From positions 1 through 20,627 of IMG/VR virus record IMGVR_UViG_3300041809_003491: a DNA stretch of 20,627 nucleotides; one strand, 5' to 3'. Both the position numbers and the translations under genes were made by a program. Each line of letters opens with the position of its first letter. The first letter of the stretch is position 1. The notes under the pieces were generated by a model. The model ran no database searches, was not told where the DNA came from, and saw only the letters and a program-made list of their open reading frames with translations. The DNA comes from a virus. Of this stretch, positions 1 to 20,627 are shown in pieces.

Positions 1-2796
1 CTACGCTCCCATGAACCTGGCCCGTCGAATACTGCGCTGCAGCGGTAGGGCGTACCCGATTAGGCAAAACTGGTCTAGGGCAAACAGGACCACCGATTCT
101 AGATGCGATCCCGACGCAATCTGCTGTTCTTTCTGCCACGGAGTGGTGTAATCGCTAATACCCACCAGGTGGCCGCTTTGGGAAGGCGGGAAGCCGCGCA
201 GCCCCGGCAATTGAATCGACTGCGTGGCCAGGTCTAGGTCCCGCTCCGCGGTGTATGTGAAGTTCTCCGTCTTCAGGCAGTTCAGATTCGCGGGCGTCCA
301 GTCATCGCCGGGGAAATTGATAAGTTGATTGAGCGCCGTATCGTTCACGTCCGTCGGATACAGCACTTCGAATCGCGCGTTCGGGAAGGACGAGCGCACA
401 AAATCTCGGATCGCCTGAGTAAACGCTCCGATCAAGCCTGGCAGGAAGGTGCACTCTTCTGCCAACGGTCCTGGATCGGCATATTGGTTCGGAATGATTG
501 CCATGGGTCGCCCATAAGCGGTCTCGAAGGCTGTGGTGGTGCAGGCGTCGTAGAGCGGCAAGCCCGGTTCCGTGACGACGGTTGCCGTGGGACCGGGGAA
601 ATACCACCACTCGACCTCGCCGAATTGCAGGTAGGGAACCAAGCCGGCGCCTGCCATCACGCCCGCCATGTCTGTGTGAACCTGTTGCCAGAAAGCCGTA
701 CTCTCCGGCCCAAAGTTCGTCTGCAGAGCCGGCGTCATCAGCCAGGCTGGATCGCCGTTCGGATACCTTTGTGCGATCCCCGTGGCCGGACTGTCGTCGC
801 CATTTTGCAGTTCCATGCTGAACGATGCCGTCGCGTCGATCCCGTAACCCTTCAACGCCGCAAAGAAGCTGCCGCTCCAGTCGCGGGCTGCGCGGTTGAT
901 CCGCGGCATCGAGGTGAGGTCCGTGCGCCAGAAATTCTGATTGGGGTCCGCGCAAGTGCCGTCAATTCCCCCGGCAAGCGCCGGCAAGGTCGTCTGCGCT
1001 GTAAGCGGTGTGCTGTTGTTCGCGGAATTCACCGTCGTTGCGGAGACGCTGAGGCCATTCCCTCCCGTTCCCATCGTGCGTGCGGTAACCGTGAGCGTCG
1101 CGCCCGCGGCCTGTGCCCACACGCTGTTCGAACCGGCATTGATCAACAGCGCGAAGCACGTTGCCACGCTTTCGGCGGTGTCGCCGATCAGGTTCACATG
1201 CTGCATCAGGGTCCCACCCAGGGTGACGCTGGTAATCTGGCCGAATTCCGGATTCCCTGCGAACGTGATGGCCGCCGAGGCGTATTGTTGGCCAGGCCGG
1301 CAAAGTTCATAGAACCAAAGCGCCCCCACATAGTGGTTGGCCCTGCCGCGGAATCCTAGTTTCTGAATCAGCCACGCCGTCCTCTCCGGCGCCAGGGCGA
1401 TCGAATGGTTCGTATCCCAGTCGGTTGCCAGGGTGATCGCCGGCATCGCCGCGAACTCCGGCAATTCGTTTGTGGGAACCGCGATCTCCAGAAAATCGAA
1501 ATAGAAGTAAGTTCCGGCGGCGCCGTCGTGAGTGATCCCGACGTTGTGTGATACCCCTCCGGCGAATTGACCCAACGGCACCCGAATCAGAACATCCTCG
1601 CTCGGTAACGCCAGGTTGACAGGTACAGCCGTATTCCCATCCACTTGGACCGAAACCTGCCCACCCCCGCCGGTATACCGCGTTCCCAGGTACAGGGAAT
1701 GGTCCATGCCAGCCGTGTAGCAACACCGGAGCGAAGATCCGGGCGTGGTTGTCCAGTGAATCAAACCGCCCGAATAGTTGCCTATGCCATCGCTCCACTG
1801 GCTTGGTGGCGAATACGCGATCGCGGTAGAGTCGTCTTCGATCCGTCGGCTCCCGGGTCCTGCCACCTGGTACAGCAGGTTGCTCCCCGTCACCGACCAA
1901 TTGGTCACCACCACCGAGAATTCAATCCGCTGGAAGTCGCCGGGCTGTAGATCCGCCGCCCACGTCCAGCGCATCTTTCGCACGCTGGACGAGGGGACCG
2001 GAACCAGCGTGGTGCGATCCGGGTCGATATAACCCTGGAGTGCGCTGAAATTGAGGTTCACTTGCCACTGGCTCGGTGAGGTCCCGCCGCTGAATAAGGC
2101 CCAAATCGGCGACCACGTTTCCGTTGCCGCCCCGTGTACCGTCCCGTAGACTCCGATGCGATTGGCATTTGCACCCAGGCCCGCCGTGTATGCCAGGGTG
2201 ATTTGCGTCCCGTCTGCCGACGCGCTCACGGTGCCGTCACCGAACTCGTTGATAGCTCCGGACAAGGCTGTGGCCGCGCTCTCCAGCGTGTCGCTTCCGG
2301 TCAGCAGGTAGTTGAAATGTTGATCCAGCCACGCCAGTTCGATGTAGTCGCCCCCCGTGGCCGCCCCCTGCAACTCGAACGTCACGGCGGCGGAAGCGTA
2401 TGCTCCACCGCTCGGTGTCGAGTATCCCAGCCGCGAGTCGTTGAGCGGCACGTCATACAGGTTCTCCACGCCGCCGTCTTCCGCCCAGATCCGCAGGTAC
2501 GGCCATTCCACCGTCGGGTAGAGCGTGGACTCCATCGGAATACAGTTAGTACGAACCTCCTGGTAGCTGAGTTGCACTCCGCTCAAGTCGCCGTCGGGCA
2601 GGTTGCGCAGGGTGGGATGTTCGAACACGTTGTCGCGGTTCCACTCTACTACCACCCAATCGAACTGTTCCCTCCAGGATCCCGAAACCGTGAATCCGTT
2701 GGCACTCGTCTGGCTGAGCGCCGCCGCGGCCGACGGTTGCTGAAAATAGCATTGCAGGTCCCGATCCGGCCGCAGTTTGCTAAGTTGCTCTCCCAT
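1..2796 (-). CDS. Tail fibre / tail-tip protein with TIM-barrel-like C-terminus
   Basis: A 931-residue protein of the tail tip or receptor-binding apparatus, by position as the last tail gene seen. The ATG at 2796 shares its A with the TAA of the upstream hub gene (TAATG), which suggests translational coupling; the frame stays open further upstream but only inside the hub gene. The TAG stop is bases 3-1, so the gene is complete. Residues about 1-125 are tail-tip-like. Residues about 131-238 and 504-612 are two copies of one domain, each opening with YASAA and containing a D-T-x-E-S-x-A-T segment. Between them, about 320-440, is a beta-rich jelly-roll-like stretch. From about 450 to the end the alternation of strands and helices looks like a TIM barrel: ITLATDWD, then VGALWFYEL, then YLQFGEVEWWYF with E727 and E729, LKTENF with E844, and VVLFALDQF. 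The second repeat domain sits inside this barrel. A glycosidase activity is possible but inferred only from this pattern. Confidence 0.75.
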   Translation of the reverse strand: MGEQLSKLRPDRDLQCYFQQPSAAAALSQTSANGFTVSGSWREQFDWVVVEWNRDNVFEHPTLRNLPDGDLSGVQLSYQEVRTNCIPMESTLYPTVEWPYLRIWAEDGGVENLYDVPLNDSRLGYSTPSGGAYASAAVTFELQGAATGGDYIELAWLDQHFNYLLTGSDTLESAATALSGAINEFGDGTVSASADGTQITLAYTAGLGANANRIGVYGTVHGAATETWSPIWALFSGGTSPSQWQVNLNFSALQGYIDPDRTTLVPVPSSSVRKMRWTWAADLQPGDFQRIEFSVVVTNWSVTGSNLLYQVAGPGSRRIEDDSTAIAYSPPSQWSDGIGNYSGGLIHWTTTPGSSLRCCYTAGMDHSLYLGTRYTGGGGQVSVQVDGNTAVPVNLALPSEDVLIRVPLGQFAGGVSHNVGITHDGAAGTYFYFDFLEIAVPTNELPEFAAMPAITLATDWDTNHSIALAPERTAWLIQKLGFRGRANHYVGALWFYELCRPGQQYASAAITFAGNPEFGQITSVTLGGTLMQHVNLIGDTAESVATCFALLINAGSNSVWAQAAGATLTVTARTMGTGGNGLSVSATTVNSANNSTPLTAQTTLPALAGGIDGTCADPNQNFWRTDLTSMPRINRAARDWSGSFFAALKGYGIDATASFSMELQNGDDSPATGIAQRYPNGDPAWLMTPALQTNFGPESTAFWQQVHTDMAGVMAGAGLVPYLQFGEVEWWYFPGPTATVVTEPGLPLYDACTTTAFETAYGRPMAIIPNQYADPGPLAEECTFLPGLIGAFTQAIRDFVRSSFPNARFEVLYPTDVNDTALNQLINFPGDDWTPANLNCLKTENFTYTAERDLDLATQSIQLPGLRGFPPSQSGHLVGISDYTTPWQKEQQIASGSHLESVVLFALDQFCLIGYALPLQRSIRRARFMGA

Positions 2797-5700
2797 TAGA
2801 GTCGGATAATCACCGTGAGGTCTGCCCCGGGAGCGGTCTGGCCTACCGACAGCACCGCCACTGTCAACTGCCCCATCTCCGGCAGTGGCGGCAGTGTGCT
2901 GCCGAGGATGCTGCTCGAAGAGATCGTTCCGGGTCCGAAAGTCACTGTGCCATACAACGCGCCGTTGAGGTTGATTTGCACCTGCACTTGAGCGTCGGCC
3001 GCCGTCCCTAAAACGGCAAACACGTCCCGCACCGAGTGGGCCGTCTCCACCACCAGCGGCGGCGCTACCGATTGCTCCACCGCCAGGAACCCATCCACTT
3101 GAATTGCATACTGCCCCCCCGAAAGAGTGCGCAGGCCACTGTCGACGTTGTGCGTCATATTTATGCCTGCCACCGGACTGTTCCCCATTTCGTTCGTCAC
3201 GAACAGTTCGGCGCTGCCCACGCGGACGTCCGGCAGGAAAATCGGATAGCTCCAACTCCCGCTGTAAGGGCTGCCGAAGAACCCGCTGGGAAATGGCACG
3301 ATCGTGGTCTGGTTCGCCAGGTGGTACACCGGCGTCGCAGCCGCGTGACTTGCCGCCGTGCTGCCATTCACGCCCCGCGCTACGCTGTACTGCGCGCCGC
3401 TGTTGGTTACCGCCGACACACTAAGAATCTCGCCATCGATTTCGAGGACGCTTCCCACCTGCCCCGGGCCCGCGGCATTCAGCGTGAGGGTCTGATCGCC
3501 CGCCGTCATGGCGCTTGCCAGCAGAGTCGTCGGTGTTCCCAGCAGCTCGTTCCAATAATGCAGGGTAAGTGTGCCCGACGAGACGGAATTCGTGTTCGTC
3601 AGGTCTGTGAACGAGACGCCGCTCAACACCACCGTGCCGCCGCCGACCCCCGGCCCCAGCCCGAAGAACGGTTGCGGCGGCACTTGTGTGTCCGCCCCAC
3701 CCGATCCCCCGATCGTCCATCGCGTCACCGTCGAAAGCTCCGGTGAACATTCGACGTTATTGACGTTGGCCGCGCGGCCGGTAATCTGCACAGCCTCGCC
3801 CGCCCGGTTTGGAATCGCAAACTGCACCGGGCTGCTCTCCGTGACGGCGCCGAAGTGCCAGCCTGCTTCGGCAACCGTGAAGAAACTCGCCGCGTCCGGT
3901 TCCACCACCCACGTCGAAACCGTTATTGTGGTCGCATCGTTGGACAGAATACTCTGTTCCTGGCCGGCTCCTGTGCCGCGCGTAATCCGCAGCGTCAGGC
4001 CCTCGTAACCGTTCACTGCCATCTGCAATGTTCCATTTCCGACCATTGTAGGTGAGTGCGTTGTGACGCCGACCTCCGGCTGCAGCTCCTGTCGCCAATA
4101 GAAATTGGCATGGTCGAAATTCGGATCCGCCGGCGGGATCACTTGGTTCGCCAGTCCCGCATCCGTGAAACTGGCCGCGACCGCCTGATTGGACGCAACT
4201 CGCAACAGCAGCGCCGGCGAGCTTCCACGATATATGTTGAATCCGGTGGTTCCTGCCGCAAAGCTTAGCCCCGTCAACGTTACGGTGCTTCCGTCGCTTT
4301 CAACGGATGCTCTCACCGTGAAGGAGAGCGCGCTTTCATCCCCGGCGCTGTTTTTCGCGGAAACGGCGTAGTAAAGTATCTGGCCGCCCGTGATAGTGCC
4401 GCCCGTCCCGATCGTCGGAGACACGCTCACCAGCGGAATGCCGGGGCCGCCGCTCGTAACTTTCGCCGGTGGAATGTAACTCACCGTCACGCTGGTCTCG
4501 ATCGTGCCGTCGCTGTTGCTAGCGGCAGTCTCGACTATTCCAAATTGGATGTTTCCGTTTGCGTCGGTCACGCTTCCCATCAGCGGACTCGGCAGTCCCA
4601 CCCCGGAATTGTTTCGAGTCACGACACCCGTGGGCGATGTTACCTGTCCGTTGGTGTCGGCGTACCACGCATCGTCGTGGATCTGGGCTGTGATCGTCGC
4701 CGTTCTGTAGTTAGTTGCCGGTGAGATCTTCAGCACTCGAAATGCCTGCCGGGTAAAGCCCTCTTTCAGGTAAGTCACCGTGATGATGTCGCCCGGCGAC
4801 ACGCCGAAGGCTTGCACACTGGTCTGGAATTGGATGTAGGTGTTTCCGAGAATCGACTTATCGAGGTTGAATTTCAGGGTCCGCGCCGCTTGGTCGTACT
4901 GCGGCAGCCCCAGCGCCATCAAGGTGGCGGAAGTGATTTGCCCAGTCAGCGCTATGTCGTCCGAGTCCACCATTTCGTAGCTGTCTTGCTGGTAGCCGTT
5001 GAGCCCGTCTTGAAACTCCACCGACATGTCGTTCGGCGTGTCGGCGATGCTGCGCGATGTCAGCACCACGCTCGCCGCTCCGTTCGCTGTTCGCAGGATC
5101 CCCGAGAACCCGTTGCTGCCATCCCCGAATTCATAACTCGGCCATCCGCCGTTCAGCGTCTCGGTGCTGTTGGACCATGGCTGCTGGGAGGGCCTCTCCA
5201 ACGCAATTGTGTTTTCGACCTGCGCTCGCAGAACTCCGCCCGGCCCATAGGTCAGGTACATTCGCGCGCAGTTGCGAATGCCCCTGACTACGTCTCCCGC
5301 ACTCCGCCGGTTCTGCAAAAGCAGATTGCATTGAAACCGCGGCAGCGTGATTGGGTTCCCGTTCGGATCCACCGCCGCGATCGTCTCGTCGCAGTATGCC
5401 GCGGCCGCCGCGAAGCTCGTCATGTCGATCTCTGCCGCCGTCCACCCGCTCCTTCGCAACACGTCCAGCAGAATCCACGCCGGATTGCTCGAGAACTGGT
5501 CGCTGATATACGTCCCATCCGTTCCGTAGACCGGTACCAGCAAACCCTGCACCAACACTTCCACGCTCGGTAGCGACGTGCCGTTGTTCAACTGATTTGG
5601 AACCACCACCGAGAGATATGCCATGCTGCCGTACGGATCGCCCGCTGGCGCTCCGCTGGCATTCGTGAAGTTGGGGTCGAACGCGCCGTCCCGCGTCCCT

Positions 5701-6674
5701 AGTGTTTCAACGTTGTACCAACCCGTGCCGGTCATGTTGGTGCCGGTTACCCCCAGCGGGATTTGTACGTCGTTCACCAGAACTGTCAGCACGCCCTGGA
5801 TCTGGCCGATACCCAGCAGCACCTCCATCCGCGTCAGGTTGCCGTCGTTGCGCGCAAACACTACCTTGGGCGACTGCCAAACGGTGCCGTAAATCATCGG
5901 CACATAGTCGTTGTAGAGCGCTTGGTTCACCGAAACCGCCGCCGTGGACGAGCTCTTTCCGTAGGCGCGGACCATGATTGCCGGCGGCACGAACTCCAAT
6001 CCGCCGAAGCGGGCGAGCATACCCCGCGCCTGGCAATCGGTGCGCACATACCCACACGAAGTAAATGGCGCTATTCCGTTCAGATTCCCCGTTCCGCCGG
6101 AAAGTCCGGCTGAATATCCGCATCGGTAATACCGGGAGTACTTGCCGTTGACTCCGCCGTTCACCGCTTCCGCCATCTGGGCTGCCGTGGTCGGAAACTG
6201 CCACGGGCACTGCCGCTCGATGCGTACCTGGGGCAGAAACACCCTCTGCAGGCTCATGCGATTGAGGGCCGTCAGGCGAAACGTGGATTCGTCGCTCCGG
6301 TCCGGTGGATTGCACACTCCCTGGAACACCACCGTGGTGTCCGTCAGAGGTACGTTGTTCCGCAGATCGTAGAACAGTACGCTCGCCGTGAGTTGCGCAC
6401 CCTTCCAGCCTACCGAGCGTTCCACCTCCGAAAAGTGCGAGTCGGCGTTGGCCAGCAGAATCGAGATCTGCGGGCTGCCGTCGATTCCCTGGTCGGAAGC
6501 CGTCTGGATATCGAAAGCGCTGTGCTGCATCACGCGCGCCGCGTACGCATTCCCGCCCGCCGTCACACCATGCGTGCACCAGTGTTCCACCTCCCCGCTG
6601 GACAACACGCAGTCGAATATGATCAGCGGCGTATCCGTCACCGGCTGCCCTTTCAGATCAGAGATGGCTTGCAT
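2796..6674 (-). CDS. Tail-tip hub protein: gpL-like iron-sulfur domain fused to a central hub/fibre (gpJ-like)
   Basis: A 1292-residue protein that should form the central tail tip. Residues 1 to about 240 resemble lambda gpL and DUF2163-type tail proteins; C156, C185, C207 and C214 are followed by RFGG at 222-225. The last two spacings (x21, x6) are close to those I recall for the 4Fe-4S ligands of lambda gpL. The middle (about 400-690) resembles gpJ-type hubs, with GDIITVTY followed by FRVLKIS and a D-D-A-W-Y motif. About 750-850 is an FN3/Ig-like domain (ILYYAVSAKNSAGDES, then FNIYRGSS). A segment near 1080 (DGEILSVSAV, then SVARGVNGS) is a type common in phage tail proteins. The ATG overlaps the end of the preceding gene by 17 bp and has only a weak GGTGA upstream. 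The stop overlaps the next start. Other phages usually encode gpL- and gpJ-like proteins separately. Confidence 0.82.
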   Translation of the reverse strand: MQAISDLKGQPVTDTPLIIFDCVLSSGEVEHWCTHGVTAGGNAYAARVMQHSAFDIQTASDQGIDGSPQISILLANADSHFSEVERSVGWKGAQLTASVLFYDLRNNVPLTDTTVVFQGVCNPPDRSDESTFRLTALNRMSLQRVFLPQVRIERQCPWQFPTTAAQMAEAVNGGVNGKYSRYYRCGYSAGLSGGTGNLNGIAPFTSCGYVRTDCQARGMLARFGGLEFVPPAIMVRAYGKSSSTAAVSVNQALYNDYVPMIYGTVWQSPKVVFARNDGNLTRMEVLLGIGQIQGVLTVLVNDVQIPLGVTGTNMTGTGWYNVETLGTRDGAFDPNFTNASGAPAGDPYGSMAYLSVVVPNQLNNGTSLPSVEVLVQGLLVPVYGTDGTYISDQFSSNPAWILLDVLRRSGWTAAEIDMTSFAAAAAYCDETIAAVDPNGNPITLPRFQCNLLLQNRRSAGDVVRGIRNCARMYLTYGPGGVLRAQVENTIALERPSQQPWSNSTETLNGGWPSYEFGDGSNGFSGILRTANGAASVVLTSRSIADTPNDMSVEFQDGLNGYQQDSYEMVDSDDIALTGQITSATLMALGLPQYDQAARTLKFNLDKSILGNTYIQFQTSVQAFGVSPGDIITVTYLKEGFTRQAFRVLKISPATNYRTATITAQIHDDAWYADTNGQVTSPTGVVTRNNSGVGLPSPLMGSVTDANGNIQFGIVETAASNSDGTIETSVTVSYIPPAKVTSGGPGIPLVSVSPTIGTGGTITGGQILYYAVSAKNSAGDESALSFTVRASVESDGSTVTLTGLSFAAGTTGFNIYRGSSPALLLRVASNQAVAASFTDAGLANQVIPPADPNFDHANFYWRQELQPEVGVTTHSPTMVGNGTLQMAVNGYEGLTLRITRGTGAGQEQSILSNDATTITVSTWVVEPDAASFFTVAEAGWHFGAVTESSPVQFAIPNRAGEAVQITGRAANVNNVECSPELSTVTRWTIGGSGGADTQVPPQPFFGLGPGVGGGTVVLSGVSFTDLTNTNSVSSGTLTLHYWNELLGTPTTLLASAMTAGDQTLTLNAAGPGQVGSVLEIDGEILSVSAVTNSGAQYSVARGVNGSTAASHAAATPVYHLANQTTIVPFPSGFFGSPYSGSWSYPIFLPDVRVGSAELFVTNEMGNSPVAGINMTHNVDSGLRTLSGGQYAIQVDGFLAVEQSVAPPLVVETAHSVRDVFAVLGTAADAQVQVQINLNGALYGTVTFGPGTISSSSILGSTLPPLPEMGQLTVAVLSVGQTAPGADLTVIIRL

Positions 6675-7440
6675 GGAAAATGTTCACCGTCGCCGAATGG
6701 CGATTCACGTCCATCGTCGTAAAGCAGAGCGCGTCGTCGCGCAGCCGTGCGTTCTCGTAACAGCCGCCGCTCGTGCTTGCCATGTAAAGGGAAGGAACGG
6801 CCTGTGGCTCCACCTGCAAGCCGTACACCTCGATCGCTGAGCCTGGCCCCACCTCTACTCCGAAAGTGACCGACGACGCTGAGGCATCCGCGGTTCCCGT
6901 ACACACCATCCTTCCCCAGTTCGCGCCGGCGATCTGCGGGTAGCGATTGCTCCCGATGACTAACGTCACCGTCGCCGGAGTCGCCGACTTTGCATATACG
7001 CTGAAACAGTACACATACCCGCCAGGCGCCGCCACCGTTTGCGATAAGTCTTGCGCTGCCGTCCCGGAGTTCACTATGTTCCAGGCATTGGTCCCGCCCG
7101 CCGGGTCCGCCATTCCTCCGGTGTTGGCGAGGAACGGTCCGCTATCCCAAACCGCGTTGCTCAGGTCGTTGCTCCACGCCAGCAGGTTCCCCATCGGATC
7201 CAGAAACGTGAAGTTATTGAGCGTACCCTCGGCGGCGGAGAAAAACTGCTGTAAAGCCGTTAATTCGGCGTCGCTCAGCGCAACGTAGTTCAGTTGCCAC
7301 TCTACCGTTTCCGCCCCCGGATCTCCCCCTTTGATGGCCGTACCGTCCGCCGCTGTGTTGACTAACGTTCGCAGTGTGTGGCGCCGTTGGACCGGAAACT
7401 GGCTCATTGCTCCGGTGGCAAGTTGTGGATATACCAGCAT
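6658..7440 (-). CDS. Distal-tail-like protein with added carbohydrate-binding-like domain
   Basis: A 260-residue protein. The first ~85 residues are paralogous to the preceding gene product: both begin with PQL-x-TGA, have a W-Q-L-N or W-V-I-N strand, then a helix (SDAELTALQQFF against DESEMAAFEQFF) and F-L/T-D-P. This matches the position and style of DUF2460-like distal tail proteins that join the tube to the hub. Residues about 90-235 form a beta-sandwich-like module with YCFSVYAKS, W-x-R-M-V and AIEVYGLQVE. That pattern is common in carbohydrate-binding modules carried by phage tail proteins. The start has GGAG seven bases upstream and lies 3 bp after the previous stop. The end overlaps the hub gene by 17 bp. 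The distal-tail assignment is by position and architecture; sugar binding is inference. Confidence 0.7.
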   Translation of the reverse strand: MLVYPQLATGAMSQFPVQRRHTLRTLVNTAADGTAIKGGDPGAETVEWQLNYVALSDAELTALQQFFSAAEGTLNNFTFLDPMGNLLAWSNDLSNAVWDSGPFLANTGGMADPAGGTNAWNIVNSGTAAQDLSQTVAAPGGYVYCFSVYAKSATPATVTLVIGSNRYPQIAGANWGRMVCTGTADASASSVTFGVEVGPGSAIEVYGLQVEPQAVPSLYMASTSGGCYENARLRDDALCFTTMDVNRHSATVNIFHASHL

Positions 7441-7443
7441 TGG

Positions 7444-7803
7444 TTAACTCCGGTTTTCTATTACCGTCAGCGACGTCTTACCGCTCATCTCCGCCAGCGA
7501 GCTCAAGGACAGTTCATCGCTGGCGAGGCTGCAGCTCGCATACTGGGTTCCGTCCCAGGGGTCCGTGAACGCAAAGCTTCCCAGCCTTCCCTGATTGTTC
7601 TGAAAGAACTGTTCGAACGCCGCCATCTCGCTCTCGTCCAATTCGGTCAAGTTGATTACCCATTGGTGCAGGGGGCCGGCCGAGTCGCGATACCGTTGCT
7701 CGGTTCCGTCCAGGAATCGCATCGTCTGGTTCTGATACCGAAGGGCCTTGGTGGCCGGATACTGCGCTACCGCGCCCGTCTTCAGTTGGGGAAGTGTGGC
7801 CAT
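7444..7803 (-). CDS. Distal-tail-like protein, short paralogue (DUF2460-like)
   Basis: A 119-residue protein that would act at the junction between tail tube and tail tip. The sequence reads as one small beta-rich domain: the N-terminal PQLKTGAVAQYP is followed by a strand with W-V-I-N-L, a helix (DESEMAAFEQFFQNNQG) and F-x-F-T-D-P-W-D-G-T, then a C-terminal strand pair (SCSLASDELSL). The FTDPWDGT element resembles members of the DUF2460/distal-tail type. The next gene contains the same fold at its N-terminus, so the two are tandem duplicates. The ATG lies one base after the TGA of the upstream gene. The assignment rests on gene order (after the tape-measure slot, before the gpL-like gene) and on the paralogy; an alternative is a minor tail protein of lambda gpM type. 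Confidence 0.68.
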   Translation of the reverse strand: MATLPQLKTGAVAQYPATKALRYQNQTMRFLDGTEQRYRDSAGPLHQWVINLTELDESEMAAFEQFFQNNQGRLGSFAFTDPWDGTQYASCSLASDELSLSSLAEMSGKTSLTVIENRS

Positions 7804-7804
7804 G

Positions 7805-8443
7805 TCAGAGGTCGCTCACCACGTCATTCAGGGAACTCAGGTTCAACATCGCCGAACGCACCGCCTGCGCGATGTCGCTGCTGTGGTCCATGAACCATTG
7901 CGGATCGCCGGGTTGTGGTGTATTCTGCGCCGGCTTGGTCTGCGGCGGCGCGTCCAACTGGCTGGCGCTGGGCGTCGCGACATTCGTCGGCGCCATCGTG
8001 CCCAGCAGTGCGTTCGTCTGCGTTGCCGCCCCGGCCCGCGGCATGCCCGATTGGTCGAAGCCGTCTGTTCCGGTGGCCTCGCTGCTGATGTCGCCTTCGA
8101 ATTGAATGGAGTCCGGCATGGCGTACTTAGTAAGTACGTTTGTCGCGGCCTGGCCTCCCTCGAGAAGCCCGATGATCCCTATGATCATCGGCAGCAGGCC
8201 GCCCTCGCTCTCCATTACCGTTTTCGCGACGGCCTCCGCGGTGATGCCGGTGTTGCCCGTGGGGGTGGTGTACGGCACGATTGGGTTGGGGTCCCCTTTC
8301 GGCGCCGTGTCGGTGCTTCCCCCGCTGCCCCCGGCCGCCCCCGTAATGCTATAGGCTTCTGCTCCCAGGTTGTCCGCGCTTCCCTGGTTCCTGGCGGCCT
8401 CGGCGAAAAGCCGCAGTAGTTGCTCTTGTGTGGTGTCGGACAT
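7805..8443 (-). CDS. Short protein in the tape-measure position
   Basis: A 212-residue protein between the chaperone/small-gene block and the distal tail genes, where long-tailed phages encode the tape-measure protein. Residues about 75-105 hold a hydrophobic stretch (GGLLPMIIGIIGLLEGG). The C-terminus (WFMDHSSDIAQAVRSAMLN, then a serine/leucine-rich tail) looks to me like the end of tape-measure proteins. The N-terminal 70 and the central region are rich in G, S, T, P and A and probably flexible. At 212 residues it is far shorter than usual tape measures, which run to many hundreds of residues. It is therefore either a minimal or reduced tape measure, or a different tail-initiation protein. 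The start lies 2 bp after the previous stop and the end 1 bp before the next ATG. Confidence 0.6.
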   Translation of the reverse strand: MSDTTQEQLLRLFAEAARNQGSADNLGAEAYSITGAAGGSGGSTDTAPKGDPNPIVPYTTPTGNTGITAEAVAKTVMESEGGLLPMIIGIIGLLEGGQAATNVLTKYAMPDSIQFEGDISSEATGTDGFDQSGMPRAGAATQTNALLGTMAPTNVATPSASQLDAPPQTKPAQNTPQPGDPQWFMDHSSDIAQAVRSAMLNLSSLNDVVSDL

Positions 8444-8445
8444 AC

Positions 8446-8784
8446 TTACGTTTCAAAGGTGGTGAGGACTGCGGCCGACGCCAGGGTCCGGAGCGTTGGC
8501 GGCACTCCGGGCGGCGCTGGCTCGCCTGGCTGAAATTCGTTGAGCATGTGGTCGGAGTGCTCCTGGCTGATTTGGTCGCTGCCGATCAGCGCCCATCTCG
8601 TGCACCCCGGCCAGTACAGCCTGGCGCACGCCAACTGGTAGCTGAATGACGCTTCCGTGTGGTCGGTGAGCACGAATGCGGGCGCCGTCGTGGCTGGTGT
8701 GGCGTCTGCCGGCCTGATGCCGATGTATGCGTGGTCTTCGCTGCTGAGTGCGTGCACGATCGCGCTATTCTCGGTGGGTGTCAT
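8446..8784 (-). CDS. Hypothetical phage protein
   Basis: A 112-residue protein that I do not recognise. It has a folded-looking core (about 15-75) with SYQLACARLYWPGCTRWALI, including two cysteines and several aromatic residues, then a proline-rich linker (PGEPAPPGVPP) and a short hydrophobic end. There is no signal peptide or clear membrane helix. The ATG overlaps the TGA of the upstream mini-gene (ATGA), and the stop lies 2 bp before the next ATG, so it is translated as part of the tail operon. By position it may be a tail minor component or assembly factor, but the sequence does not say which. Confidence 0.6.
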   Translation of the reverse strand: MTPTENSAIVHALSSEDHAYIGIRPADATPATTAPAFVLTDHTEASFSYQLACARLYWPGCTRWALIGSDQISQEHSDHMLNEFQPGEPAPPGVPPTLRTLASAAVLTTFET

Positions 8785-8930
8785 TTCTTTTTGGCTCTCT
8801 CGGATTTCTTGCCGCGCGTCGGTACCGGCACGGTGAGGGACTTCTGCCGCGCCGCGCCCGTTCCTCCTCCCACGCGGACCTGGTGCGGCGTCTTCGGCGC
8901 CTTCGGGCTTTTGAGGGTCATGCCTGCCAT
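8781..8930 (-). CDS. Small basic phage protein
   Basis: A 49-residue protein, very basic at its end (RGKKSERAKKK) and rich in K, P, G and T, likely disordered. It has no recognised domain. The chosen ATG at 8930 has GAGG six bases upstream, while an in-frame ATG at 8942 overlaps the previous stop and would add four residues (MRRT). The TGA overlaps the ATG of the 112-residue gene (ATGA). The tight overlap at the downstream side and the good ribosome binding site argue for a real gene despite the small size. Role unknown; the charge would fit nucleic-acid or partner binding. Confidence 0.5.
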   Translation of the reverse strand: MAGMTLKSPKAPKTPHQVRVGGGTGAARQKSLTVPVPTRGKKSERAKKK

Positions 8931-8938
8931 CGTTCGCC

Positions 8939-9112
8939 TCATGGTAGGTCCGGGTTGTCGACGTCTTGGATTCCGGCCGGGATGCCCGCGTCGAACTGCT
9001 GGTTCTGCTCGATGCTGTCCTCGAGGGCCTGCGCCTCTTCTTGCGTGTTGAGGGGCTGCGGTAGGAATTGCTTGGGCGTTGCCGGCTTCTGGCGTTTCGG
9101 TTGGCGTATCAT
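8939..9112 (-). CDS. Small charged phage protein
   Basis: A 57-residue protein with a basic, proline-rich first third (MIRQPKRQKPATPKQ) and an acidic, glutamine-rich remainder (NTQEEAQALEDSIEQNQQF) that may form one helix. It is not recognised. The ATG at 9112 has AGGAG seven bases upstream. An upstream in-frame TTG at 9139 has no such site and lies next to the repeat, so the ATG is preferred. The gene restarts the operon after the repeat-bearing gap 9113-9397. Confidence 0.5.
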   Translation of the reverse strand: MIRQPKRQKPATPKQFLPQPLNTQEEAQALEDSIEQNQQFDAGIPAGIQDVDNPDLP

Positions 9113-9143
9113 CGGTTGACTCCTATCAGCCTGTGGCAATAGT

Positions 9144-9235
9144 CCTAAAGCATCGCTTACTAACGCCCGGCTCTGTAGATTCAGCGCCCCTTACTGAGCC
9201 GCGACCGTAAGGGAGCGGATTTGTCACAGGCTGCT
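9144..9235. repeat. Dispersed composite intergenic repeat, copy 1
   Basis: About 90 bp, closely similar to 15403-15490. The shared order is CCTAAAGCA, CGCTTACTAA, a small hairpin (arms 9169-9175 and 9182-9188 with one mismatch, loop TAGATT), CAGCGCCC, then the core GCCGCGACCGT-AGGGAGCG, then CACA. It lies in the non-coding gap between the 88-aa and 57-aa genes. The core here has A where most copies have C. Confidence 0.8.
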
Positions 9236-9397
9236 ATGGCTGGCGCTCTCGGCCGGGCGCTACTCCGGCCGCGGCCGTCGTTACGAAAACGTTCGTTCGC
9301 GTCGCGCACCCATAGCTGCTTCGCATTCTGCATCGCTCGCGCGGGTCGCTGGCTGCGCCGGCCTGACTTATACCGTGCGTCAGCTTGACGTTGATGC
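9236..9397. other. Non-coding gap without a recognised gene
   Basis: Remainder of the 285-bp gap 9113-9397. It contains a perfect 12-bp palindrome CGGCCGCGGCCG at 9266-9277 and a short hairpin CGTCA-GCT-TGACG at 9378-9390, just after the 88-aa gene's stop. No T-rich tract follows the hairpin, so it is not called a terminator. No coding sequence is supported here. Confidence 0.5.
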
Positions 9398-9664
9398 TCA
9401 TTTCCCCTTGCTTCGTGGCGTCCGGAACCTGCCCCCCGCGGTCCGCGCCCTGAACTTCATTTGCGCGTCTGCCTGGATCTTGGCGTTGAGCTTCGCTGCC
9501 TCCGCATCGTCCGCGCCGCTGCCTTGTGCGGCGTCTTGGTCGAGGGTCTTGGTGGTGGCGTCGGGGCCTGTTATCGTTCCCTGCGCCGGCTGTCTGCCTG
9601 CGTTCTTCGTGGCTTCACAGTCTCGTTTGTCTGTCGGCTCGTTGTCTTGCGTTGTGTCGTCCAT
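9398..9664 (-). CDS. Small hydrophilic phage protein
   Basis: An 88-residue protein with an acidic, polar first two thirds (MDDTTQDNEPTDKRD, then DQDAAQGSGADDAE) and a basic C-terminus (MKFRARTAGGRFRTPRSKGK). It has no hydrophobic core and no recognised domain, so it is probably disordered or folds on a partner. The ATG has AGGGGAG seven bases upstream, which is strong. The gene overlaps the end of the chaperone frameshift extension by 50 bp in another frame. It sits between the chaperones and the tape-measure slot; it might be a chaperone partner, but that is only positional. Confidence 0.55.
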   Translation of the reverse strand: MDDTTQDNEPTDKRDCEATKNAGRQPAQGTITGPDATTKTLDQDAAQGSGADDAEAAKLNAKIQADAQMKFRARTAGGRFRTPRSKGK

Positions 9665-10345
9665 CGTTCATCTCCCCTGCCAGTTCTTTTTCCAAAATCA
9701 CGAATGCCTCCGCCTGGCGGGCGCTCAACTCTTCTCCATCCAACGCCCGCAATTGCCGCCGCACCAGGAACTCCTCCACCAGCGAGCGGCTCTCCGCGGT
9801 GATATACGGCTTTGGGCATGTGTCGAGGGTGACATTCCTCCGCGCCCAAACTGGCCGCCCTGGTGCGCTGGCATCGGCGGGAAGCCATCCGCAACGCCGC
9901 GTTCGTTCCAGACCGGACTTCCGGCAGATGTCGCACTTCCAACCGGCCTGGTTGGAGAATTCGAAGTGGAAGGCGACAATCAGTTTTTTCGTTCTGCCGG
10001 GCTCAACCCCGTCTGCGCCCGCACCGCTTCTACCGCCTCGCGGAACAGTTCCTCCGGCCCGGCCTCCGCCAGCGACTCCGGTGTGGCTTCCACTCCATCC
10101 AAATCCAGCCCCGAAATCGCCCTCAACCCCCACTTCACGTAAAGACGGTCGATTTCGGCCTGCAGCAGAGCGGCATCCATCTTCTGTCCGGCGTCCGCCC
10201 CCGCTCCCAGAAACTCCACCCTTCGGGCCAATTCCCGCACTTGCCGCATCAGCTCCGTCCGTCTTCCGAAGGACATTTTCGCGACCGTGAACTTCACGCC
10301 GCCGGCCACCCGCGACTCCACCACCTCTACGCTGTCATAACTCAT
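9615..10345 (-). CDS. Tail assembly chaperone, predicted -1 frameshift fusion product (gpGT-like)
   Basis: Predicted alternative product of the chaperone gene. Ribosomes that slip by -1 on A AAA AAC (9989-9983) avoid the TGA at 9982-9980 and read from 9983 to the TGA at 9617-9615. This gives about 243 residues: the 121 of the short form plus 122 more. The extension has no start of its own with a good ribosome binding site near its beginning, yet it is protein-like. It contains C138-x2-C141, C152 and C177, a possible zinc-binding knuckle, then a helical region (SRSLVEEFLVRRQLRALDG and AFVILEKELAGEM). In lambda and many other siphophages the pair gpG/gpGT is made this way and chaperones the tape measure and tail tube. 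The position directly after the tail tube gene fits. Frameshifting itself is inferred. Confidence 0.7.
9929..9989 (-). promoter_or_regulatory. Programmed -1 ribosomal frameshift signal
   Basis: Slippery heptamer A AAA AAC (9989-9983), in phase with the upstream frame (CGA AAA AAC TGA). Four bases after it begins a stem: TGTCGC (9978-9973) pairs with GCGACA (9934-9929), and TTCCA (9971-9967) with TGGAA (9941-9937). A small internal loop separates the two helices and the apical loop is 25 nt. The -1 frame then stays open for 122 codons. Heptamer, phase, spacing and stem together match known frameshift sites. Confidence 0.75.
9980..10345 (-). CDS. Tail assembly chaperone, short form (gpG-like)
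   Basis: A 121-residue, largely helical protein translated without frameshifting. The N-terminus is a short beta segment (GGVKFTVAKMSFGRR) followed by helices with many charged residues (LMRQVRELARRVEFL, MDAALLQAEIDRLYVKWGL, EELFREAVEAVRAQ). The VKFTVAKMSFGRR opening looks like a small tail-chaperone or tail-associated protein. It follows the major tail tube gene by 97 bp and precedes the tape-measure slot, the standard place for the chaperone pair. The stop codon immediately follows the slippery heptamer. The ATG has GAGG 12 bases upstream, a weak site. Confidence 0.7.
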   Translation of the reverse strand: MSYDSVEVVESRVAGGVKFTVAKMSFGRRTELMRQVRELARRVEFLGAGADAGQKMDAALLQAEIDRLYVKWGLRAISGLDLDGVEATPESLAEAGPEELFREAVEAVRAQTGLSPAERKN

Positions 10346-10442: not shown

Positions 10443-11624
10443 CTATCCGAATGCCACCGCGATTTCGTCGTTCACCGTTCCCTGGGCCCTCGATGGCCTG
10501 AACTTCCACTGCAACCGGTTCTTGCTATCGTCGAATTCCGGCACCACCGGAATCACGCTTTTCAAGTAGACCCCCACCAAGTGGCCCTGCGTTTCTCCCA
10601 ACTGGAACATCACGCTGATCGGCGATTGCTGCCGCGCTGCTTGGTATAGTGCCACCGTGTTGGCGTCATCCTGGCTGAAGAGCTCGAATGCCGCCGTCAC
10701 AGTCCGCTCGCCCGGCGCGATGGCCCTCGGAAGGCTCGACCCGAATTCTCTTGATCGTGTATCCAATCCGTTCTTGAGCACCACTGACCCCGCGGTAATC
10801 GTGAAGAACTGCGTTGGCGTTGTCCCCAGCCACGCCTGGCCCAGGTTGCCGGGCACGATCGTATAGTCGAACCCGCCCACCGCCGGCTCTCCTGGAAAAC
10901 TCTGCAGCTGTCCTGCGCCACCCGTGTTCCCGCCGAAGCTGCTGCTGTCCACTACGTCCTGTGCCTGTCCGCTGAAAAGAAATTCATGGTAATCGCCGTT
11001 CAGGTCGATCGCCATCTGGTCCACCGCCCCCCCGCATAACAGTCGCTGCGTCGCTGTGGCCGGGTTCCAGTAATCGAATATCCCTACGCTCGGCAGCTCC
11101 GTGGCCGGAGAGTAAGTGATCGCCACTCCGACCGGCGCGCCCGCCGCCGGCGGCACCGTGAACGGCACGTTGAGCTGAACGTTGTTGGCATCCACGATCG
11201 CCGCCACAAACCGGATCTCGCCGCCCGAGCTCACTGCCTGGCCCGCCTGTAGCCCGTGCGCCGCCGCAAATCCCAACCTTCCGCTGCCCGTGCTGGCCGC
11301 CGCCGTCCCTCCCGCGAAATACGCCGGCGACGCACCCAGCGCCGCCTGGAACAGTGGGCCGTAACTTGGGCCGCTGGCCGATTGCGTCCAGTTCGTCAGG
11401 AACGTCCGCAGCTCGAAGCTGGTCTGCCGTCTGCCCCCCGCCGGCAGGCCCGCAAACGTCCGGCTTCCCGTCTTGTCTTTCCGGTCGGTGACTTCCAGTT
11501 GTTGCTTGACGGTCAGTTTCACAGCTGGAATCCGGTTCGTCGCTGTGATCGTGGGGACCTGTCCATACGCGCTTTCCAGCGCCGTGTAGAACCGGTTTGC
11601 GTTAGAGGAAATATAGGAGGCCAT
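10443..11624 (-). CDS. Major tail tube protein
   Basis: A 393-residue protein that should form the tail tube. It starts MASYISSNANRFYTALES, then K-L-T-V-K-Q-Q-L-E-V and a strand with SFELRTFLTNW, the usual beta-rich beginning of tube subunits. Residues about 105-178 form an inserted domain (GLQAGQAVSSGGEIRFV). The C-terminal half has long strands (TVTAAFELFSQDD, ISVMFQLGETQGHLVGVYL, NRLQWKFRPSRAQG), again tube-like. The position between the terminator-like protein and the chaperone pair supports the call. Its length is larger than a minimal tube protein, which the inserted domain explains. The ATG is one base after the previous stop (TAGTATG). The family name was not recalled, so the assignment is from fold style and order. 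Confidence 0.75.
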   Translation of the reverse strand: MASYISSNANRFYTALESAYGQVPTITATNRIPAVKLTVKQQLEVTDRKDKTGSRTFAGLPAGGRRQTSFELRTFLTNWTQSASGPSYGPLFQAALGASPAYFAGGTAAASTGSGRLGFAAAHGLQAGQAVSSGGEIRFVAAIVDANNVQLNVPFTVPPAAGAPVGVAITYSPATELPSVGIFDYWNPATATQRLLCGGAVDQMAIDLNGDYHEFLFSGQAQDVVDSSSFGGNTGGAGQLQSFPGEPAVGGFDYTIVPGNLGQAWLGTTPTQFFTITAGSVVLKNGLDTRSREFGSSLPRAIAPGERTVTAAFELFSQDDANTVALYQAARQQSPISVMFQLGETQGHLVGVYLKSVIPVVPEFDDSKNRLQWKFRPSRAQGTVNDEIAVAFG

Positions 11625-13247: not shown

Positions 13248-13278
13248 TCTGTCCTCCCCTGTGTTGCCTGTCTTCCCG

Positions 13279-13616
13279 GCTCTCCCGCCGGCATCCAGGA
13301 CGAGGTCCGTCCACCGTGCCTCGCCCCCGGTTGATGCAATTAGTGAACTCTTACCGAGCCGCGACCGTCAGGGACCGTTCTTCACTCCGTCGTCCTCCCG
13401 GCGTCCGGGGCGAGACTTGTCCATCGTGCCTCGCCCCGTCGATGCCATCGGTCCGCCCGCTGAACTCTTACCGAGCCGCGACCGTCAGGGACCGTTCTTC
13501 ACTCCGTCGTCCTCCAGGCGTCCGGGCGAGACTTGTCCATCGTGCCTCGCCCCGTCGATGCCATCGGTCCGCCCGCTGAACTCTTACCGAGCCGCGACCG
13601 TCAGGGAGCGGTCTTT
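13279..13616. repeat. Tandem repeat of ~116 bp in the coat-gene downstream gap
   Basis: The 380-bp gap 13248-13627 is nearly filled by this array. Unit 1 is 13344-13460 (117 bp) and unit 2 is 13461-13576 (116 bp), differing by one substitution and one deletion. A partial third unit starts at 13577 and a diverged partial unit precedes unit 1 (about 13279-13343). Each full unit begins TGAACTCTTACCGAG, continues into the dispersed core (13356-13378, 13473-13495, 13589-13611) and ends with a segment containing GTGCCTCGCCCCGTCGATG. The plus-strand open frames across it are repeats of the same 39-residue pattern and are not considered genes. Confidence 0.88.
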
Positions 13617-13627
13617 ACCCGGTCCCT

Positions 13628-15177: not shown

Positions 15178-15234
15178 AAGCCTCCTCACTGACTCTGCTT
15201 GCCAGGTTCCCCTTCGTAACTACAGGGCCGCGAT

Positions 15235-15265
15235 TATCGAGCCGCGACCGTCAGGGAGCGGCTTT
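15235..15265. repeat. Dispersed intergenic repeat core, copy in portal-scaffold gap
   Basis: A single copy of the core (GCCGCGACCGTCAGGGAGCG, 15241-15260, preceded by CGA) in the same orientation as the other five. It lies in the 361-bp gap 15178-15538, which holds no gene. Downstream (about 15300-15330) is a weakly similar version of the second half of the tandem unit. Confidence 0.8.
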
Positions 15266-15402
15266 CCCTGCACCGTTACTCTGCGCCCCTGTCTCATCTG
15301 CGTCCCACCCCGGCAAGACTCGGCATCCACAAACATACGCCGGGTTGTTTCTGTCCTTGTCTTTCTCTGCGCCGGGGTACCCCTGTTAGCGCCCTTTGTA
15401 AG

Positions 15403-15490
15403 CCCTAAAGCACCGCTTACTAAAATGCGCTGCCAGATTCAGCGCCCTACCGGGCCGCGACCGTCGGGGAGCGAATTCTGCCACAAGGTG
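15403..15490. repeat. Dispersed composite intergenic repeat, copy 2
   Basis: Second copy of the ~85-bp composite element also seen at 9144-9235. It has CCTAAAGCACCGCTTACTAA, a perfect 6-bp hairpin (GCGCTG 15427-15432 and CAGCGC 15440-15445, loop CCAGATT), then the core at 15452-15474 with two changes, then CACAAGG. It is non-coding, 49 bp beyond the portal gene's stop in the direction of transcription. Confidence 0.8.
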
Positions 15491-15538
15491 TTACCGGCCC
15501 TCTCTGCGGTGAACACCCCTTCTTAGTTTCCCCCGCTC

Positions 15539-18704: not shown

Positions 18705-20627
18705 TTACCGGATGGCCGGAGCGTGATCCGGCTGCGTTCCAACCGCTTCCTGGGGAGGCGCGATTTCCACTTTCCACCTTTTCATCCACACGAAAAGCGT
18801 CAGCAGGCCCCATAAGTGGTATCCCGCATTGACGCGCCTTTCCATGTGGTCCCGTATCAGGGATTGGATCGCGCCCGTATCGAAGATTCCCGTGGCCTCG
18901 ATCGCTTCTGGACTCAGGACGTCCATCAGCAGCTCCCGCAGCGGCCCTCGGAACCAGCCGTGGGTCGGAATGTCGAATCCGGTTTTCGCGCGGTGCAGCA
19001 CCGTCTCCGGCAGTTTCCCCCGCATCAGTTCCTTGAGCAGGACCTTCTGCCGGAACCCGCGGATTTTCATCCTCGCCGGCAGTCCGGCGGCGAACTCCAC
19101 GATCCGGTGATCCAGAAATGGCGGACGGACCTCCAGCGAGTGCGCCATGCTCATGCGGTCCGTTTTGTACAGAATATCGTCCGGAAGGTAGTAGCTCTGG
19201 TCCACGCGCAGATACCGTTCCACCACCCCGCTGGCCGGCAGTCCCAGACGGTCCACCAGCATTCGCAAACCGCCGTTGCCGGCCCCGGGACGGATCTGCT
19301 GGCGCTGTTCCGCGGAAAATGTGCCGTTCCAGAAAAAGTGGGCCTCGTCGGGATCGAACCCGCTTCCTTCCAGCCATCGTTTCAGCTTGTACTCCAGGCT
19401 GATCTTCTCATCCGACACCGGCATGTACCGGTCCAGTGTTCCCCGCATCCATCGGCGCAAACCGCGCGGAACCAGCCGGAACGGTCGCACCAGCTTATCG
19501 GCGAGGTAAGTGACATACCCCCCGAATAACTCGTCCGCGCCTTCTCCCGACAGTGCTACCGTCACTTCGCGGCGCGTCATGCGCGACAGGAACCACAACG
19601 GCAGTGCGCCTGCATCCGCGCTCGGCTCATCCGAATAGTAGGCGAAGTCCTCGATCGCGCTTCGCAGTTGCACCTCCGGGTTCAAGTCGAACTCATAATG
19701 CTCGGTGCCGTAGACGCGCGCGATTTCCCGGAAATACGGACTCTCATCGAAGCTGCGGCCCGCAAACGAAACCGAGAATGTCTTCAGCCGGCCCGCATTC
19801 TGCGCGGCCGCATAGTGCAGGATCGTGGAAGAGTCCAACCCGCCCGAAGCCCACACCCCCAGCGGAACATCCGCCACCAGGTGCTCGCGCACCGCGTCGC
19901 GGAGCAACCAGTCCAGCTCTTCCTTCGCCGCATCGAGGGTTAGGTCGCTTCTCTCCCGCTCCGCCGGTTTCCACCATCGTTCCAGCCGCACTCTCCCCTG
20001 TCGCCATTCCAGCCAATGGCCGGGTGGCACTTTCCTGATGCCCTCGATCAGCGTGTGGGGCCCAGGTACGTAATTGACCGAGAGATAGTTATCCAGTGCT
20101 TCCAGGTCGAGCCTCCTGGGAATGTCCGGGTGCTCGAAAATGGCCTTTAGCTCGGAGCCGAAATAGACCTCGTCGCCGCCGCGGTAATAATACAGCGGCT
20201 TGATGCCCATCCGGTCTCGTACCAGCACCAGCCGCCGGCGCGACTCTGTCCACAGTGCCGCCGCGAACATCCCCCGCATGCGCTGGAAGCACGCCATGTC
20301 CCACTGCAGATACGCCCGCAGTACCGTCTCGGTGTCGCAATGGGAACGGAAGTGGTGGCCTAACCCCTCCAGCTCGGCGCGGATTTCGCGGTGATTGTAA
20401 ATCTCCCCGTTGAACGCAATCGCCGTGTCCCCATCGTCGCTCACGATGGGTTGATCCCCTCCCCCCAGGTCGATGATCTTCAACCGCACCGCGCACAAGG
20501 TCGCCACGCTGCCTTCGAAGATCCCCTGTTGGTCCGGTCCGCGATGCCGCAGCGTTTCTGTGATCCCCCGGGCAACGCCCTTCTCCACCGTCTTACTGAG
20601 TCGTGTAAACCCTGCGATGCCACACAT
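18705..20627 (-). CDS. asnB: Asparagine synthetase (glutamine-hydrolysing)
   Basis: A complete 640-residue protein that makes asparagine from aspartate, ATP and glutamine in the cytoplasm. The N-terminal glutaminase starts MCGIAGF with the nucleophile C2, then RHRGPDQQG (about 27-35), NGEIYN at 73-78 and a D-T-E at 98-100. The synthetase domain has the ATP-binding SGGLDSS at 261-267, then GEGADELFGGY, and later YYLPDDILYKTDRMSMAHS followed by VRPPFLDH. The length is near that of related AsnB proteins, many of which serve amidotransfer in surface polysaccharide or secondary pathways rather than free asparagine. The ATG is the last three bases of the window, so its upstream control is not visible. 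It stands 252 bp before the small terminase gene and may be a flanking host gene or a cargo gene. Confidence 0.92.
   Translation of the reverse strand: MCGIAGFTRLSKTVEKGVARGITETLRHRGPDQQGIFEGSVATLCAVRLKIIDLGGGDQPIVSDDGDTAIAFNGEIYNHREIRAELEGLGHHFRSHCDTETVLRAYLQWDMACFQRMRGMFAAALWTESRRRLVLVRDRMGIKPLYYYRGGDEVYFGSELKAIFEHPDIPRRLDLEALDNYLSVNYVPGPHTLIEGIRKVPPGHWLEWRQGRVRLERWWKPAERERSDLTLDAAKEELDWLLRDAVREHLVADVPLGVWASGGLDSSTILHYAAAQNAGRLKTFSVSFAGRSFDESPYFREIARVYGTEHYEFDLNPEVQLRSAIEDFAYYSDEPSADAGALPLWFLSRMTRREVTVALSGEGADELFGGYVTYLADKLVRPFRLVPRGLRRWMRGTLDRYMPVSDEKISLEYKLKRWLEGSGFDPDEAHFFWNGTFSAEQRQQIRPGAGNGGLRMLVDRLGLPASGVVERYLRVDQSYYLPDDILYKTDRMSMAHSLEVRPPFLDHRIVEFAAGLPARMKIRGFRQKVLLKELMRGKLPETVLHRAKTGFDIPTHGWFRGPLRELLMDVLSPEAIEATGIFDTGAIQSLIRDHMERRVNAGYHLWGLLTLFVWMKRWKVEIAPPQEAVGTQPDHAPAIR

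Follow-up and report, generated by a model that had tools for sequence, protein, structure and literature searches.

In phage lambda, the tail genes follow the order gpV, gpG/gpGT and gpH, and the slippery heptamer is G GGA AAG. The gpG/gpGT type is further characterized by a fixed low ratio of long to short product and by binding to the tape measure and the tube. The literature regards such a frameshift as the norm for tail chaperone genes (PMC8601537). A second kind of system, the gene transfer agent (GTA), is defined by head and tail proteins of caudoviricete origin that are fully endogenized and mostly inherited vertically, in co-diversification with the host; the definition further comprises the packaging of random host DNA, its delivery to other cells and a head too small for the element's own genome (PMC9662315). 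The paper on the structure of RcGTA, the GTA of Rhodobacter capsulatus, makes no mention of a tail chaperone or a frameshift (PMC7296036). A third point of reference is a 2025 paper on Tunturi viruses, which in the passages concerned distinguishes proviruses specific to the Bryobacterales as group (i) (PMC11924767).

The DNA analysed here, referred to as the window, is a virus record of 20,627 bases in IMG/VR. It very probably encodes a programmed −1 ribosomal frameshift that yields a short protein, G, and a 243-residue fusion, G-T, which we predict to be a tail-assembly chaperone pair. The larger finding is the setting of this site, an order-wide, vertically inherited head-tail cluster.

The slippery heptamer and its overlapping frame

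Three features of the window define the candidate site:

9980 to 10345, minus strand: G, the short product and candidate tail assembly chaperone, 121 amino acids, conserved in 80 of 80 genome loci
9989 to 9983, minus strand: slippery heptamer A AAA AAC, with the phase X XXY YYZ in the 0-frame
9615 to 9986, minus strand: T extension, read in the −1 frame and 123 codons long when the re-read lysine codon is counted

The frame of G closes with CGA AAA AAC TGA. From the AAA at 9986 to 9984, the −1 frame runs to a stop codon ending at 9615 and adds 122 further codons to G, giving the fusion a length of 120 + 123 = 243 residues. An earlier note on this DNA had proposed this arrangement, with the heptamer in the correct phase at the end of the short frame, the −1 frame open for 122 more codons and a 243-residue product, and all of these points hold. 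The heptamer alone is expected 1.1 times by chance over both strands of the window and was found once; the case must therefore rest on conservation.

In IMG/VR, searches found well over 100 contigs with relatives of T and G, and 101 genome contigs with relatives of T were also recovered, 80 of which were retained for comparison; further, more distant copies were drawn from whole genomes. The records are labelled Acidobacteriota, mostly Bryobacterales, Bryobacteraceae, Solibacteraceae or Terriglobia, and one is labelled Acidimicrobiia, while no relatives of T or of the neighbouring tail protein were found among 50,697 deposited phage genomes. The heptamer is present in 278 of 280 loci with T, and the remaining two, L213 and L292, were rejected as exceptions because N masks exactly this stretch in both. 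All 202 readable distinct junctions keep it, 200 as AAAAAAC and 2 as AAAAAAT. The lysine codon of the heptamer is AAA in every junction, against 454 AAG and 135 AAA codons in the rest of G. The 0-frame stop follows the heptamer directly in 174 of the 202 junctions, one codon later in 26 and 22 to 33 codons later in 2. These last two (L294 and L310) were likewise rejected as exceptions, since the heptamer is present and only the stop lies further on; they retain the T frame without an adjacent stop, and the tail of their short product would differ. The slippery site is thus conserved even where the stop is not.

T is free of stops over its conserved length. Its third codon positions are the most variable, and its pairwise dN/dS has a median of 0.23, with all 1232 pairs staying below 1. 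The T extension is under purifying selection as a protein. The alignment of homologous loci for which the earlier note had called therefore has a clear outcome, with the heptamer and a protein-like −1 frame conserved across all 202 readable distinct junctions. Of the two contrary patterns which that note had named, loss of the heptamer with both frames kept was not seen among the readable junctions, and an extension without protein-level selection was sought and not found.

It could be argued that T is a separate overlapping gene with its own start and that the heptamer is incidental, given that gene overlaps are common in phages and that the −1 frame of the window is open well upstream of T, with a GTG at 10133. 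However, 69 of the 202 loci have no ATG, GTG or TTG in the −1 frame from its upstream stop as far as codon 8 of T, which means that T cannot start alone there and must come from a ribosome that has translated G; for those 69 loci independent initiation was rejected, unless a non-standard start is used. Protein conservation also starts exactly at the heptamer (K1 L2 ... A5 F6), and the synonymous sites of the heptamer do not vary. We consider a separate gene extremely improbable. Annotation is affected by the frameshift reading, as gene finders would end G at the UGA and either miss T or give it a wrong start.

The downstream hairpin and the proposed ribosomal slippage

Past the heptamer, the minus strand carries two complementary arms:

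9978 to 9967, minus strand: 5′ arm of the stem, UGUCGCCUUCCA, 4 nt past the heptamer
9941 to 9929, minus strand: 3′ arm of the stem, UGGAAG-U-GCGACA, with one bulged U at 9935

The minimum-energy fold is a hairpin of 6 + 6 bp (12 bp) around the single bulged U, with an energy of −19.3 kcal/mol for 62 nt and a z-score of −2.7, and 2 of 200 shuffled sequences were equally stable. The folding that the earlier note had suggested as a check was therefore favourable to the stem it described; the position four bases on and the two parts were right, and its count of 6 + 5 bp was nearly exact, the pairs being 6 + 6.

Both arms are coding, so conservation of the RNA has to be told apart from that of the protein. 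Synonymous sites are frozen in the 5′ arm (Val4 is GTC in 170 of 171 sequences) and in the 3′ arm (Cys18 is TGC in 173 of 173 and Asp19 is GAC in 155 of 160). The third base of the unpaired His7 is evenly divided (CAC 84, CAT 84), and Cys57, outside the stem, is encoded by TGC in 91 cases and by TGT in 82. Ala5 and codon 17 covary at their third bases, which pair in 151 of 173 sequences, with a maximum of 137 in 10,000 shuffles. In distant relatives, the pair GTC-GAC is replaced by the compensated pairs CTC-GAG, GCC-GGC or ATC-GGT, in which both codons are altered and the pairing is kept. In a set of 100 sequences, which was enriched for unusual stem codons and compared with shuffles that do not remove relatedness, pairing was found in 96.7% of stem cells, as against 93.0% in the shuffles (0 of 500 as high), and 24 cells were changed on both sides, as against 5.3 (0 of 500). 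Pairing in the same set drops to 34–49% when the stem is slid, and this control, together with the several kinds of compensation, offsets in part the caveat of enrichment and relatedness. The loop varies from 24 to 39 nt among relatives, and in the two long-loop relatives that were folded (L204 and L208) the isolated fold was no more stable than shuffles.

The RNA hairpin is unusually well supported. Heptamer conservation, the constant AAA at the lysine and the covariation of the stem are beyond chance, unlike the heptamer alone. Together with the protein-level selection on T, they support the view, already put forward in the earlier note, that these elements act as a frameshift signal.

The same evidence bears on the possibility that the −1 product results from transcriptional slippage on the run of A rather than from ribosomal frameshifting. 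The site does have six A in a row, and a few relatives have longer runs (L200, L214), yet the run is six in nearly all loci, and transcriptional slippage generally needs runs of eight or more. The base that follows the run is C or T without exception, and a covarying downstream stem would have no role in such slippage. Heptamer conservation and stem covariation thus disfavour this explanation, which we regard as very improbable.

In the ribosomal frameshifting that we propose, most ribosomes would complete G and stop at the UGA that directly follows the heptamer. A smaller fraction, paused by the hairpin 4 nt downstream, would slip back by one base on A AAA AAC, the P-site tRNA-Lys staying on AAA and the A-site tRNA-Asn re-pairing from AAC to AAA, and would then continue for 122 codons to produce G-T. 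A point against this is that in E. coli the heptamer A AAA AAG is the more slippery of the two, ahead of A AAA AAC. The slippage itself, its rate and the chaperone role of the products are what we infer from the analysis of conserved features.

Gene neighbourhood and the predicted chaperone pair

G and T lie within a cluster of head and tail genes:

10443 to 11624, minus strand: upstream neighbour, tail protein and probable tail tube, 393 amino acids, PHROG 290
7805 to 8443, minus strand: downstream neighbour, short tape-measure-like protein, 212 amino acids
2796 to 18452, minus strand: rest of the syntenic head-tail cluster, with terminase, portal, scaffold-like, P22-type coat, two DUF2460 and gpJ-like genes

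The gene order, from terminase to fibre, is the same across genome loci. The upstream protein matches PHROG 290 ('minor tail protein', 1e-11), as do 23 of 23 relatives; comparison with solved structures gave no identification, and its position indicates that it is probably the tail tube. On the other side, 18 of 25 relatives of the 212-residue protein hit the family PHROG 3779, 'tail length tape measure protein', the best of them at 7.8e-6. This protein has 174 to 236 residues in nearly all relatives, and such a short tape measure implies a very short tail. Its C-terminus is conserved as AMDSxSFxDRSxDIAxAVRxAMLN. The lambda-like position that the earlier note had assigned to the frameshift gene agrees with these two neighbours, with the tube identity read from gene order. 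In the window, a stretch of about 1.2 kb (8444 to 9614) with small ORFs of 88, 66 and 112 amino acids separates T from the tape-measure gene. Many relatives have the two genes lying close together or overlapping at the end of T, so this stretch looks lineage-specific.

Several other observations concern the layout of the window. The last gene of the cluster (1 to 3255) matches the Pfam model 'non-contractile tail sheath protein TIM barrel' (2.5e-16), which is unusual at the fibre position. The DUF2460-like genes at 6658 to 7803 lie in tandem and encode 119 and 260 amino acids; the match of the second is low-scoring, and the pair may be a duplication. Near-identical segments are repeated at 13250 to 13620 (NSYRAATVRDRSSLRRPPG, plus-strand reading), in the interval that separates the coat gene from the one that follows, and look like interspersed host repeats; a PRPSGS segment at about 15190 to 15530 looks related to them.

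The AlphaFold model of G is confident (pLDDT 88.8), and that of T has a pLDDT of 89.5. A Foldseek comparison of both with the PDB gave no match, and sequence profiles from PHROG, Pfam, NCBIfam and the PDB gave no convincing match to a known chaperone or family. Weak matches to RNase HII (0.027), DUF3708 (0.007) and the Tse3 N-terminal domain (0.0013) came from single or few members and were taken as chance. Since G and T have no match in family libraries or solved structures, they would form a new family of a known kind, and the chaperone role assigned to G and G-T derives from gene position and two-product logic. By analogy with lambda, G would be made in surplus over a small amount of G-T, and the two would cover the tape-measure protein and bring in subunits of the tail tube.

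A real frameshift could also serve a pair of proteins that are not chaperones, with T adding some other function, such as an enzyme or a metal-binding module. The lack of homology or fold match to known chaperones is compatible with this, and so are the invariant residues of T, which include Cys18, Cys21, Cys32, Cys57 and Trp47, the four cysteines suggesting a metal (zinc-like) site. Nevertheless, every complete relative has G and T placed between a tail-protein gene and the tape measure, and the logic of two products is that of lambda, which makes a function of this other sort unlikely. As judged from sequence comparison, we have high confidence that this is a real frameshift of a known kind, located in a protein family that is new.

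Inheritance of the cluster and comparison with known systems

T was found in 105 of 150 genomes from one Acidobacteriota order, the Bryobacterales, once in each, and the coat gene was found in 110 of the 150, nearly always as a single copy. Among 396 genomes drawn phylum-wide, only 2 gave strong coat matches, both already seen in the order. Three copies of the coat gene occur in one genome (G063), and a C-terminal fragment of this gene lies about 10–16 kb away from the main copy in two viral contigs (L059 and L079); these cases may stem from duplication, from a related prophage or from misassembly. In the window, a host-type asparagine synthase/amidotransferase gene (18705 to 20627, XrtA/PEP-CTERM amidotransferase model) adjoins the cluster, which indicates that the virus record was cut from a chromosome.

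In 19 genomes, a tree of four structural proteins had 11 of 16 splits in common with the rpoB tree (random mean 0.2, maximum 3), and no strong splits of the cluster and rpoB trees were in conflict. Single-gene distances correlate with those of rpoB at 0.52–0.71 for portal, coat and tail protein, and weakly for the terminase TerL (Mantel 0.24). In two closed genomes, the cluster is directly flanked by ordinary host (metabolic) genes, and no integrase was found near it. The cluster genes are not decayed.

Measured against the definition of a GTA, the head and tail proteins are of caudoviricete derivation (terminase, P22 coat, DUF2460, gpJ-like), the cluster is endogenized between host metabolic genes in closed genomes, with asnB upstream in one subclade as in the window, and inheritance is mostly vertical according to the rpoB comparison. 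The cluster thus fits the sequence-testable parts of the definition. It is probably a chromosomally inherited GTA-like element, a phage relic more than a roaming virus. We lean, with some reservation, towards the fuller reading that it represents an undescribed GTA of the Bryobacterales, co-inherited across the order, whose tail assembly would depend on the selected −1 frameshift. In the literature that we searched, no GTA of the Acidobacteriota is described, which is not proof of absence. Where the earlier note spoke of a phage type, the element is probably better read as an inherited GTA-like one of the Bryobacterales.

An ordinary temperate prophage family common in the Bryobacterales, as opposed to a domesticated GTA-like element, would accord with the filing of the record as a virus in IMG/VR, with the genome that has three coat-gene copies and with the similar Bryobacterales proviruses reported in the group (i) passages (PMC11924767). 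It is harder to reconcile with a single copy in nearly all of the 105–110 positive genomes, with the agreement between the element and rpoB trees, or with host genes directly adjoining the cluster and no integrase found in the two closed genomes. We regard this explanation as doubtful, although it deserves consideration.

With the GTA-like reading preferred, a known phage tail-chaperone device can be traced across a whole bacterial order in an apparently domesticated chromosomal cluster. If a two-product tail chaperone has been preserved by the host for so long, particles are probably still made and useful. Bryobacterales are abundant soil and peat bacteria, and the slippery site offers a direct genetic handle on whether they run their own gene transfer system. 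Were the GTA reading true, it would place a GTA in a further phylum, with a recoding site in every copy examined.

The group (i) proviruses share with the present cluster the host order, the provirus calls in IMG/VR and the conservation of gene order, and the two are probably the same elements, as judged from these features; the passages on group (i) are silent on a frameshift, on single copies, on co-phylogeny and on a GTA reading (PMC11924767). RcGTA resembles the cluster in its short tape measure, of about 216 residues as judged from segments (PMC7296036), against 212 here. It is also similar in being a single chromosomal head-tail cluster with DUF2460-like genes that is co-inherited with its host, but the coat family here is of the P22 type, the host phylum differs, no sequence relationship has been shown, and particles and DNA transfer are putative for the present cluster.

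The closest parallel to the site itself is the tail assembly chaperone pair gpG/gpGT of lambda, along with its counterparts in other long-tailed phages, with which it shares a short gene, a slippery heptamer, a −1 slip into an overlapping frame and the location between tail-protein and tape-measure genes; the 69 loci that permit T only as a fusion with G add to the likeness. G and T have no detectable similarity in sequence or fold to the lambda proteins, and such proteins diverge greatly. In contrast to lambda, the site described here combines the heptamer A AAA AAC with a strong, covarying downstream hairpin, and its T extension bears four invariant cysteines.
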